DNA of 36,493 nt, from contig JADMJQ010000031.1 of the NCBI GenBank assembly GCA_018780415.1, forward strand, positions 72,112 through 108,604. Reading direction: 5' to 3'. Positions within the stretch are counted from its first letter, which is position 1. Every line of letters starts with the position of its first letter. Position numbers and translations under genes: made by a program. This stretch comes from Roseateles sp. Its GTDB lineage: Bacteria; Pseudomonadota; Gammaproteobacteria; Burkholderiales; Burkholderiaceae_C. Shown here piece after piece: positions 2,647 to 6,303 of this stretch. The notes beneath the pieces were generated by a model that had not been told where the DNA came from, ran no database searches, and saw only the letters and a list, made by a program, of their open reading frames with translations.

Positions 2647-3678
2647 TTATCCAGCGAAGTATTCGCGCATAGCGGCGATGGCTTGGTCCACCGCGGCTTC
2701 GTCCACATCCAGATGGGTGACGAAGCGCAGCTTGTAGAGGCCGGTGGCCAGCACGCCGCGCGCCTTCAAGTACTCGATCACGCCGGCGGCCCTGCTTGCG
2801 GTCACGCCGGCCACATCGACGAAGACGATATTGGTCTGCGGCGCCTCAACCGTCACGCCGGGCAGGCCTTGCAGCCCGGCGGCCAGACGCTTTGCCAGCG
2901 CATGGTCATCGGCCAAACGCGCCACCTGGTGGTCAAGCGCGTAATGCGCCGCCGCCGCCAACACGCCGGCCTGGCGCATGCCGCCGCCCAGCATCTTGCG
3001 CCAGCGCTTGGCCTGTTTGATCAGGGCGGCCGAGCCGCACAGCACCGAGCCGACCGGCGCGCCCAGGCCCTTGGAGAAGCAGACCGACACGCTGTCGAAA
3101 TACTGCGTTATCTCACGGGCAGCCGCATAAGGGTCGCCGCCAGCCGACACCGACGCGTTGAACAGCCGAGCACCGTCCAAATGGCGCGCCAGCCCATGCT
3201 TTTGCGCCAGCGCCGAGGCCTCGGCCAAGTAGGCCAAGGGCAGCACCTTGCCGCCAATGGTGTTCTCCAGCGTCAGCAAACGCGTGCGCGCGAAATGCAC
3301 ATCATCGGGCTTGATGTTCGCTGCGATGTCTGCCAAGGACAGCGAGCCATCGGCCTGGTGATTCAGCGGCTGCGGCTGGATGGAGCCCAAGACCGCTGCG
3401 CCGCCGCCCTCCCAGCGATAGGTATGGGCGAACTGGCCGACGATGTACTCGTCGCCGCGCTGGCAATGCGCCATCAAGGCACAGAGATTGCTCTGCGTGC
3501 CGGTCGGCATGAACAGCGCCGCCTCAAACCCTAAGCGCTCGGCGACTGCCTGCTGCAGCGCATTGACGCTGGGGTCATCGCCGAACACATCGTCCCCGAG
3601 CTGCGCTGCGGCCATTGCTTCGCGCATGCCGGCCGTCGGCTGGGTCACCGTGTCGCTACGGAAATCAACTGTTTTCAT
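2647..3678 (-). CDS. ltaE: Low-specificity L-threonine aldolase
   Basis: DFRSDTVTQPTAGMREAMAAAQLGDDVFGDDPSVNALQ, LENTIGGKVLPL, LDGARLFNA, CFSKGLGAPVGSVLCG: PLP-dependent beta-eliminating lyase/threonine aldolase signatures. Confidence 0.93.
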   Translation of the reverse strand: MKTVDFRSDTVTQPTAGMREAMAAAQLGDDVFGDDPSVNALQQAVAERLGFEAALFMPTGTQSNLCALMAHCQRGDEYIVGQFAHTYRWEGGGAAVLGSIQPQPLNHQADGSLSLADIAANIKPDDVHFARTRLLTLENTIGGKVLPLAYLAEASALAQKHGLARHLDGARLFNASVSAGGDPYAAAREITQYFDSVSVCFSKGLGAPVGSVLCGSAALIKQAKRWRKMLGGGMRQAGVLAAAAHYALDHQVARLADDHALAKRLAAGLQGLPGVTVEAPQTNIVFVDVAGVTASRAAGVIEYLKARGVLATGLYKLRFVTHLDVDEAAVDQAIAAMREYFAG

Positions 3679-3681
3679 GGC

Positions 3682-4266
3682 CTACAGCGCCAGCGTCAGG
3701 AAGTTCTTCAGCATCGCGTGGCCATGCTCGCTGAGGATGGATTCCGGGTGAAACTGCACGCCCTCCAGCGGCGTCGCCGTGCCGGCCAGCTCGCGGTGGC
3801 GCACGCCCATGATCTCGCCGTCTTCGCTGCGCGCGGTGATGTCGAGCACGGCCGGCAGCGAGGCCTCCTCGATCGCCAGCGAGTGGTAGCGAATCACGCT
3901 GAAATCCTTGGGCAGGCCCTTGAACACGCCCTTCTCGTCGGTCGTGATGGTGCTGGCCTTGCCGTGCATCTGGCGCTGCGCGCGGACTATTCTGCCGCCC
4001 AGCGCTGCACCCATGCTTTGGTGACCTAGGCAGACACCCAGAATCGGCAGCTTGCCGATGAAGTGCTGGATCGCCGCGATGCAGATGCCGGCCTCTGCCG
4101 GCGAGCAAGGCCCCGGTGACAGCACCAGATGGTCGGGCTGCATCGCTTGGATTTCTTCCAGCGTGATCTCGTCGTTACGGGCGACCCGCACCTCAGCGCC
4201 GAGTTCCCCAAAATACTGCACCAGGTTGAAGGTGAAGCTGTCGTAGTTGTCGATCATCAAGAGCAT
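3682..4266 (-). CDS. trpG: Anthranilate synthase component II (glutamine amidotransferase)
   Basis: [26 protein letters not shown]..., [43 protein letters not shown]. Start trimmed to the ATG at 4266, preceded by GGGG. Confidence 0.96.
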
Positions 4267-4287
4267 TTTTATCCCCAAGGCAAGCAA

Positions 4288-4325
4288 GGACGCAGAGTTC
4301 GCAAAGGGACGCAGAGTCCGCAGAG
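4288..4325. repeat. Left inverted repeat of the GxxExxY cassette, itself two ~19-nt gacgcagag-type subrepeats
   Basis: Direct reading; pairs with 4705-4742 at 32/38 positions. Confidence 0.9.
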
Positions 4326-4326
4326 C

Positions 4327-4704
4327 TCACAGCTGGTTCACAAGCCGCCTCAATCCTTTCAACAGAGTCGGCTGATTGAAATTGATCAGCAGACCAAGAC
4401 GTTTATCGCTGAGTCGCAAATAAGAAAGCAGCTGTGCTTCATGCTGCGGGGTCAAAGCATCCACCGCCTTGAGCTCCACCAGCACACAGTCCTGGACCAA
4501 AAAGTCGGCCCGGTACGAGACGCCAAGGTCCTGCCCTTTGTACAAGGCCCGAATCCCAAGCTCACGCTCGAAAGAGCAGTTCCGCAATTGAAGCTCGATC
4601 GACAGCGCATTGGCATACGCCGACTCCAGCAGCCCGGGTCCCAGGCAACGATGGACTTCGACAGCAGCGCCAATCACCATTTCGCTGACTTGATTTTCAA
4701 TCAC
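4327..4704 (-). CDS. GxxExxY family protein (PD-(D/E)XK nuclease-like)
   Basis: MIENQVSEMVIGAAVEVHRCLGPGLLESAYANALSIEL (GxxExxY = GLLESAY) and SYRADFLVQDCVLVELKAVD (D...ExK, PD-(D/E)XK-like). GTG start with GGAGG 8 nt upstream, inside the right inverted repeat. Confidence 0.9.
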   Translation of the reverse strand: MIENQVSEMVIGAAVEVHRCLGPGLLESAYANALSIELQLRNCSFERELGIRALYKGQDLGVSYRADFLVQDCVLVELKAVDALTPQHEAQLLSYLRLSDKRLGLLINFNQPTLLKGLRRLVNQL

Positions 4705-4742
4705 CTCTGCGACCTCCGCGTTCCTCTGCGCACTCTGCGTCC
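4705..4742. repeat. Right inverted repeat of the GxxExxY cassette; contains the ORF's Shine-Dalgarno (GGAGG) on the minus strand
   Basis: Plus strand ctctgcgacctccgcgttcctctgcgcactctgcgtcc; inverted relative to 4288-4325. Confidence 0.9.
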
Positions 4743-4755
4743 GAATTCCCGAGTC

Positions 4756-6252
4756 CTAAAACCCCTCCTCAACCAACTCCGCCGCCCGTATCAAGGCCCT
4801 CGCCTTAGCTTCCGTCTCGGCCCATTCCAGCTCGGGCACCGAGTCGGCCACCACGCCGGCCGCCGCCTGCACATAGAGGGTTTCGTCCTTGATGATGCCG
4901 GTGCGGATGGCGATGGCCAGGTCCATATCGCCGGCAAAGCTCAGGCAACCGACCGCGCCACCATAAATGCCGCGCTTGACCGGCTCCAGCTCATCGATGA
5001 TCTGCATCGCGCGGATCTTGGGCGCGCCGCTTAGCGTGCCGGCCGGGAAGCTGGCTCGGAACACGTCCAGATTGCTGATGCCGTCATTCAAGATGCCCTC
5101 GACATTGCTGACCAGATGCATCACATGCGAGTAGCGCTCGACGACAAAGGCATCGGTCACCTTGACCGAACCAGTCTTGACGATGCGGCCGATGTCGTTG
5201 CGGGCCAGGTCAATCAGCATCAGATGCTCGGCCAGCTCCTTGGGGTCGGCCTTCAGCTCACGCTCCAGGGCCAGGTCTTGCTCCAGCGTGCCGCCGCGCG
5301 GGCGGGTGCCGGCCAGCGGGCGGATGGTGACCTTGTCACCGTCGGGAGAATGCTCCTGGCGGACCAGAATCTCCGGCGAGGCGCCGACGATCTGGAAGTC
5401 GCCCATATCGTAGAAATACATATAGGGGCTGGGGTTCAAGGAGCGCAGCGCCCGGTACAGGCTCAAAGGCGATTCGGTGTAACGCTTGCGCAGGCGCTGA
5501 CCAATCTGCACCTGCATCATGTCGCCGGCGGCGATGTATTCTTTGGCCCGCAACACCGCCTTCAAATAATCTGCCTTGGCAAATTCGCGCTCGACCGGGT
5601 GCGCCTGCCCGCGTTTGACCAGCGGCGCCGAGACGCTATAGGCCAGCTTGTCGCGCAGCTCGGTCAGGCGCTTTTGCGCCTTGAAAAAAGCCTCGGGCTG
5701 GCTCGGGTCGGCGTAAACGATCAAATAGAGCTTGCCGCTGAGGTTGTCGATCACCGCCAGCTCCTCGCACTGCAAGAGCATCACGTCCGGCGTATCGATG
5801 CCGCCGGGCATTGCTGTCTTGGCGAGCTTGGGTTCGATATAGCGCACCGCGTCATAGCCGAAATAGCCGGCCAGGCCACCGCAAAAGCGCGGCATGCCGG
5901 GCCGCAGCGCGACCTTGAAGCGCTGCTGATAGGCGGCGATGAAGTCGAGTGGGTTGCCGTTGTGAGTCTCAACCACCTGGCCGTCGCAGATCACCTCGGT
6001 CAGCAGGCCGCGGCTCTGCAGCACGGTGCGGGCCGGCAGGCCGATATAGGAGTAACGCCCAAAGCGCTCGCCACCGACCACCGATTCCAGCAAGAAGCTG
6101 TTGCGCCCCCCTTTGCCGCCATAAGCCCCGGCGCCCGAGCAGAGCTTCAGGTAGAGCGAAAGCGGGGTTTCCAGATCGGCGAAGGCCTCGCTGATCAAGG
6201 GGATGCGGTTGTAGCCGAGCGCGGCCAGGCTTTTAAATTCAAGTTCGGTCAT
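4756..6252 (-). CDS. trpE: Anthranilate synthase component I
   Basis: MTELEFKSLAALGYNRIPLISEAFADLETPLSLYLKL..., IRPLAGTRPRGGTLEQDLALERELKADPKELAEHLMLIDLARNDIGRI, FPAGTLSGAPKIRAMQIIDELEP. Likely start at 6252 or 6255; the ORF-track start at 6288 lies inside a predicted terminator hairpin. Confidence 0.97.
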   Translation of the reverse strand: MTELEFKSLAALGYNRIPLISEAFADLETPLSLYLKLCSGAGAYGGKGGRNSFLLESVVGGERFGRYSYIGLPARTVLQSRGLLTEVICDGQVVETHNGNPLDFIAAYQQRFKVALRPGMPRFCGGLAGYFGYDAVRYIEPKLAKTAMPGGIDTPDVMLLQCEELAVIDNLSGKLYLIVYADPSQPEAFFKAQKRLTELRDKLAYSVSAPLVKRGQAHPVEREFAKADYLKAVLRAKEYIAAGDMMQVQIGQRLRKRYTESPLSLYRALRSLNPSPYMYFYDMGDFQIVGASPEILVRQEHSPDGDKVTIRPLAGTRPRGGTLEQDLALERELKADPKELAEHLMLIDLARNDIGRIVKTGSVKVTDAFVVERYSHVMHLVSNVEGILNDGISNLDVFRASFPAGTLSGAPKIRAMQIIDELEPVKRGIYGGAVGCLSFAGDMDLAIAIRTGIIKDETLYVQAAAGVVADSVPELEWAETEAKARALIRAAELVEEGF

Positions 6253-6271
6253 CATCAAGTCCAACCCTAGC

Positions 6272-6303
6272 AAAAGCGCGCCGGCCATCTCTGTGGGGCG
6301 CGC
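6272..6303 (-). terminator. Candidate intrinsic terminator/attenuator upstream of trpE
   Basis: Minus-strand RNA GCGCGCC-ccacagagauggcc-GGCGCGC-UUUU: 7-bp perfect GC stem (6297-6303 with 6276-6282), possible inner CCA/UGG pairing, then UUUU. Confidence 0.55.

Follow-up and report, generated by a model that had tools for sequence, protein, structure and literature searches.

A GxxExxY nuclease-like gene framed by inverted heptamer arms between trpE and trpG: a candidate miniature palindromic mobile element

The unit between trpE and trpG

The window, by which we mean the whole stretch of Roseateles DNA analysed here (36,493 nucleotides), carries trpE (4756..6288, minus strand) and, downstream on the same strand, trpG (3682..4266, minus strand), the ATG of which lies at 4266 with GGGG upstream of it. 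Between these neighbours sits a compact unit made up of a single small gene and two repeat arms. A spacer of 13 nt (4743..4755), missing in relatives, leads from the trpE stop to the upstream arm (4705..4742, minus strand), and this arm directly abuts the GTG start of a GxxExxY gene (4327..4704, minus strand; TIGR04256 / PF13366, PDDEXK_3) that codes for 125 aa and a predicted nuclease of the RecB/Cas4/lambda-exonuclease kind. One nucleotide separates the stop codon from the downstream arm (4288..4325, minus strand), an inverted copy of the upstream arm, and a spacer of 21 nt (4267..4287), which carries the trpG Shine-Dalgarno, completes the distance to the trpG ATG. The placement is thus as an earlier note on this DNA had described it, 13 nt from the trpE stop and with the GGGG of trpG intact.

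The two 38-nt arms are complementary at 32 of 38 positions. Their local alignment scores 26, whereas none of 1000 dinucleotide shuffles exceeded 16. The match and the tight fit of the arms to the start and stop codons, both reported in the note, are confirmed. Its description of the arms as built of subrepeats of about 19 nt stands in so far as each arm consists of two 19-nt halves, but the element that repeats is a heptamer, CGCAGAG, rather than a 19-mer: two CGCAGAG-type heptamers make up each half, giving four per arm, with the downstream four in mirror orientation. In mRNA sense the upstream arm reads GGACGCAGAG TG CGCAGAG GAA CGCGGAG GT CGCAGAG, with the GTG directly after; its opening, with the heptamers set off by hyphens, is GGA-CGCAGAG-TG-CGCAGAG-GAA. 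As read from the sequence, one heptamer of this arm supplies the GGAGG Shine-Dalgarno of the GxxExxY gene, 8 nt ahead of its start codon. The mRNA is predicted to fold so that the whole arm stem is paired and the ORF lies in the loop (z = -5.2). An Rfam search returned sub-threshold matches only, which we take as generic hairpin noise since most were to plant or animal miRNA models. That a chance inverted repeat happens to lie beside an ordinary gene has practically no probability: the score of 26 lies far from the shuffle maximum of 16, and the association with arms is general across the gene family (see below), which rules this explanation out.

Elsewhere in the window, trpG and trpD are separated by a beta-eliminating-lyase (threonine-aldolase-like) gene (2647-3678), and a similar gene is found downstream of trpG in a relative of the same genus, G004 (L192). 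Downstream of trpC, adjacent ORFs at 29-752 resemble a HEPN / MNT-nucleotidyltransferase pair.

Comparison within the genus establishes that the unit is an insertion. In most of the genomes that are readable at this position trpE and trpG are adjacent, and since in many of them the two genes are only 0-3 nt apart, the window unit has been inserted between them. Two relatives carry another short insert in the gap, and in a few trpG is not beside trpE. The earlier note had proposed a compact inserted unit and a search for empty sites in the trpE-trpG gaps of relatives; such sites exist, and most relatives lack the gene altogether, a GxxExxY gene being present in only 2 of 18 genus genomes, the window's own included. 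The other is G004, where a unit occupies the same trpE-trpG gap with different arms (AACCACAGAGGCACAGAGGCACAGAG). The two proteins are about 50% identical and do not stand side by side on the tree, which is poorly resolved, and the trpE-trpG site is empty in G007, a close relative of G004. Protein divergence, different arms and this empty site together suggest that the G004 and window units are likely to be independent insertions into the same gap. The gap in G001 and G013 (L037, L051) holds a different short palindromic insert (CCCCCCGAGGGGG...GGGGCGGCCCGG), which suggests that this position tolerates or attracts inserts.

The earlier note had seen no clear target-site duplication, and none is seen either at the window or in the G004/G007 pair, two sites that were both compared across species. 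Among the genomes compared we saw no recent jump of the unit; phages gave no match to it, plasmids distant matches only, and neither source yielded an empty site at strain level.

A predicted nuclease of RecB/Cas4 type

The window ORF matches TIGR04256 (3.5e-41, NCBIfam) and PF13366 (1.7e-39, Pfam), well above both curated profile cut-offs (140.2 versus 35 bits and 135.3 versus 22 bits). Its GxxExxY motif, G24-E27-Y30, and the residues D67, E77 and K79 are conserved in 98-100% of 131 relatives, and Q91 and Y95, which form a QxxxY motif after the ExK, are kept in 98%. The QxxxY motif is a marker of the RecB/Cas4/lambda-exonuclease-type group of PD-(D/E)XK enzymes, and retention of all five residues (D67, E77, K79, Q91, Y95) in 98-100% of the relatives makes it likely that the window protein carries an active site of RecB/Cas4 type. 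The predicted structure points the same way. In Foldseek, the best PDB matches of an AlphaFold model (pLDDT 96) are lambda exonuclease and SSO0001, a Cas4 protein, with probabilities of 0.99-1.0 and TM scores of about 0.5-0.6 at modest E-values of about 5e-3; when viral models are searched, a haloviral PD-(D/E)XK nuclease ranks first of the named matches (E 1e-8). Cas4 profiles match the protein weakly, a PDB sequence search gave no useful match, and no PADLOC family rose above noise. Predicted fold and conserved residues thus support the PD-(D/E)XK nuclease reading offered in the earlier note.

In the freely accessible literature that we searched, no link of GxxExxY proteins to flanking repeats, mobility or mechanism was found. 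At an RT locus described in the literature, a GxxExxY gene takes the position expected for cas4 (PMC8934634).

Several GxxExxY copies, in seven genomes (L276-L283), are apparently decaying, their reading frame being broken in two or reduced to fragments. In some loci (L053, L057, L063) the ORF begins or finishes within the arms, and the heptamers are there translated (MNRRDAEAQ..., ...SAPLRLCG).

Arms, gene copies and gene-less palindromes

The association of arms with the gene extends far beyond this genus. Eighty named relatives, which were found with a four-sequence alignment and are thus confined to the LGPGLLESA clade, come from many phyla and include methanogenic and methane-oxidising archaea. 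For the 77 of these 80 loci with enough flank, the inverted-repeat score across the gene flanks has a median of 23 and is at least 20 in 69%, whereas control flanks displaced by about 700 bp reach a maximum of 14 (0% at 20 or above) and mismatched flank pairs score at least 20 in 8% of cases. Heptamers of the form CRCVRAK or CRCVRAA, inward in orientation and of matching class in both arms, are found at 117 of 131 loci, the arms usually being capped by ACC; CRCVRAK-type heptamers occur in both arms at 13 of 88 displaced controls and at 0 of 26 loci of the S23 family considered below. One candidate, C355 (L034), was excluded as an apparent coding repeat.

Heptamer class also follows the protein. 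On the protein tree, which is built from few columns and has many unresolved forks, the base that ends the heptamer (G, T or A) changes 2 times, the minimum possible; shuffling gives 15.2 changes, and 0 of 200 shuffles were as low as 2. The second heptamer base, with 25 changes on the same tree, varies freely. So small a number of class changes indicates that, as judged from these sequences, gene and heptamer class travel together across phyla; part of the matching could be simple linkage. The expectation in the earlier note that the arms are tied to GxxExxY genes is accordingly borne out at loci from many phyla, with arms that co-evolve with the protein.

The coding unit is found at many different intergenic sites, with housekeeping operons as its neighbours. 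The gaps that recur are trpE-trpG (2) and trpD-trpC (5, some by descent), and others include ribF-ileS, prfB-lysS and gaps in ABC-transporter operons, several of these gene names having been read from sequence. The homing unit envisaged in the earlier note is rejected because the sites vary in this way. Between co-directional neighbours, called by ORF length, the unit has the same orientation in 73 cases and the opposite one in 6. The likely reason for this bias is that the unit has no promoter of its own and relies on transcription of the operon, though insertion by an RNA-level route would yield the same bias. GxxExxY copies that share a genome reach an identity of no more than 74% (median 43%), and most are nearer to a copy in another genome than to those in their own; this mutual divergence suggests that the coding unit itself rarely multiplies.

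The arms, by contrast, do occur in many copies without the gene. Besides the unit itself, the window genome contains five short palindromes of this kind with no GxxExxY ORF inside, and across the order the arm pattern is present in 62 of 299 genomes, its background being almost nil. Most arms belong to such gene-less palindromes, and the solo elements inspected are 100-210 bp long. At least five arms are found in 25 of 45 gene-positive genomes versus 8 of 254 gene-negative ones (odds ratio 38, p = 1.4e-17, kinship ignored), leaving 8 of the 33 arm-rich genomes without a GxxExxY gene. Dispersal of arms without the gene, which the earlier note had thought would speak against a connection, is therefore real in some genomes, although the overall association is strong. 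In ten genomes with partial arm lists, solo arms resemble the heptamers of the resident coding arms (cosine 0.62 versus 0.32, p = 2e-4), and in G194 the solo copies also have their outer ends, outside the heptamers, in common with the coding unit. Four G194 copies gave a striking impression that both arms of a solo element change in concert, but a score test did not bear this out (arm likeness within versus between elements 28.4 versus 28.1, and 39.5 versus 37.9), and the idea was discarded.

The most conspicuous gene-less case is G010, a member of the same genus with no GxxExxY gene, which has about 30 amplified palindromes of nearly uniform length (169 bp; L221-L237, L307-L335) with outer ends CGGCAC(A/T)GA(A/G)CCGTCGTTCGC around a heptamer core. 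The gene may have been lost here, or another enzyme may move these palindromes. In G116 (L301-L303), palindromes with heptamer arms have a REPIN-like hairpin inside (GTAGGAGCGAGCTTGCTCGCGAT...), so that one palindrome family is nested within another.

Interpretation and comparison with known systems

The window unit is best read as a miniature palindromic mobile element, belonging to a class that is widespread and whose nuclease would work on hairpins made of arms of the cognate heptamer class, mobilising in trans the DNA that such arms flank; we give this a probability of roughly 55%. The ends of such an element would be the inverted arms of tandem heptamers (CRCVRAK, usually ACC-capped), and its only gene would encode a small PD-(D/E)XK nuclease of RecB/Cas4/lambda-exonuclease type matched to the heptamer class. 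As single-stranded DNA or RNA the arms would form a long hairpin, which the nuclease, or so we infer, would recognise and cut (its substrate might instead be the matching palindromes), and cutting would lead in trans to excision, copying or insertion of arm-flanked DNA, mostly of gene-less copies. RAYT has been proposed to act likewise on REPINs in trans (PMC3116915). Borrowing the promoter of co-transcribed genes would be the reason why the unit settles between them, and the arm would provide the GxxExxY gene with its ribosome-binding site. The term 'self-contained' used in the earlier note is doubtful: gene copies are old and diverged while arms alone multiply, even in the gene-less G010.

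A second gene family shows the same plan. ORFs of the S23/four-helix-bundle family (TIGR02436) in the same order are also framed by inverted tandem heptamers that abut the ORF, with an inverted-repeat score of at least 15 in 88% of loci versus 7% of mismatched pairs; their heptamers are of a different family (GTGAGGA, GTGAAAG, GTGACAG, GGGGATA and others). These S23 units (L082-L107) recur at ahcY-metF, dnaK-dnaJ, rfbB-rfbA and guaB-guaA, names again read from sequence. In Coxiella, RNase III cuts out the 23S rRNA intervening sequence (IVS), in which GACAGAT heptamers precede an S23 ORF (PMC4990558). It may be, then, that the window unit is an RNA element of this kind, with RNase III cutting the arm stem in the operon mRNA and so freeing the ORF segment from the trpE and trpG messages, much as the IVS is freed from 23S rRNA, the protein being incidental or acting on its own RNA. 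The stem that forms fully in the predicted mRNA, the co-direction bias of 73 to 6, the plan shared with S23 units of the same order and the Coxiella precedent are all consistent with such processing. Taken alone, however, it leaves the gene-less palindromes across the genome and the matching of heptamer to protein unexplained, and the near-invariance of the catalytic residues argues that the GxxExxY protein is not incidental. We consider it unlikely.

The gene-less palindromes themselves invite another account, that they are an independent repeat family moved by some other enzyme and that GxxExxY genes were captured between their arms, perhaps because the nuclease benefits the host or the repeat. 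This would fit the eight arm-rich genomes that lack the gene, the roughly 30 palindromes with defined ends in G010 and the REPIN-like sequence nested in G116 arms, but it sits poorly with arms that flank the gene almost universally in phyla far apart and with a heptamer class that tracks the protein lineage with minimal changes, and we regard it as slightly less likely still than the RNA element, the other main rival. Very improbable, in our judgement, is an addiction or defence cassette whose nuclease attacks foreign or arm-less DNA while the arms merely regulate expression. The weak Cas4 profile matches and the RT locus with a GxxExxY gene in the expected cas4 place (PMC8934634) could be read in that way, whereas the lack of any PADLOC family above noise, the absence of a partner gene from the unit and the housekeeping-operon neighbours all count against it.

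With the arms, a protein family of unknown function that is found very widely gains a genomic partner and a testable role; the prediction of a cognate heptamer makes the question directly testable. Intergenic heptamer repeats, noted piecemeal for decades, gain a candidate enzyme and, through the shared plan, a tie to 23S rRNA intervening sequences. If a RecB/Cas4-type nuclease does move palindromes, small mobile DNA would have a route of an unfamiliar kind. We entertain only tentatively the broader possibility that GxxExxY genes and heptamer arms constitute a new transposition system, in which a Cas4/RecB-like PD-(D/E)XK nuclease and no transposase spreads hairpin-forming palindromes in trans, with S23 units and their separate heptamer class as a second branch of one palindromic architecture that would cover the 23S rRNA IVS.

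The gene-plus-arms unit resembles an unrecognised, very small mobile element, and it shares features with several known systems. The protein is like Cas4, lambda exonuclease and RecB-family nucleases in predicted fold and in its D..ExK..QxxxY residues, but is about half their size, is framed by repeat arms and has beside it in the unit neither a CRISPR nor a recombination partner. As in a MITE or insertion sequence, the element is short and has terminal inverted repeats, present in the window unit, and defined ends (169 bp in G010); it differs in that the unit has no known transposase, its sole ORF being PDDEXK_3, and no target-site duplication was seen at the two sites inspected, both in cross-species comparison. 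Intergenic tandem heptamers like those of the arms have been described as GGGAATC/GGGGATT in Xanthomonas and Nostoc (PMC4692102), TAACTGA in Beggiatoaceae (PMC4679880) and GGGACCG in Geobacter (PMC2700814), those of Xanthomonas often as inverted pairs, and no enzyme has been assigned to these reported repeats; in the accessible text of these papers they are not tied to a GxxExxY or S23 gene.

Two further systems resemble the unit. The 23S rRNA IVS with its S23 protein (PMC4990558) likewise combines inverted repeats of tandem heptamers with a single small ORF and sits in a transcribed unit without killing it, but there the protein is a four-helix bundle rather than a predicted nuclease, the site is the 23S rRNA gene rather than the gap between trpE and trpG, and the heptamer class is different (0 of 26 S23 loci share the GxxExxY class). 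The REPIN-RAYT system (PMC3116915) has in common with the unit short palindromes that are dispersed in large numbers and linked to a gene, a repeat type that matches the gene lineage, and gene copies that are distinct within a genome and have their closest kin in other genomes, the same pattern of divergent copies having been reported for RAYT genes and REPINs (PMC3116915). It differs in its enzyme, a Y1 (HUH) transposase where the window protein has PDDEXK_3 as its only match and is a putative PD-(D/E)XK nuclease, and in its architecture, the arms of the present unit being tandem heptamers with the gene between the two.
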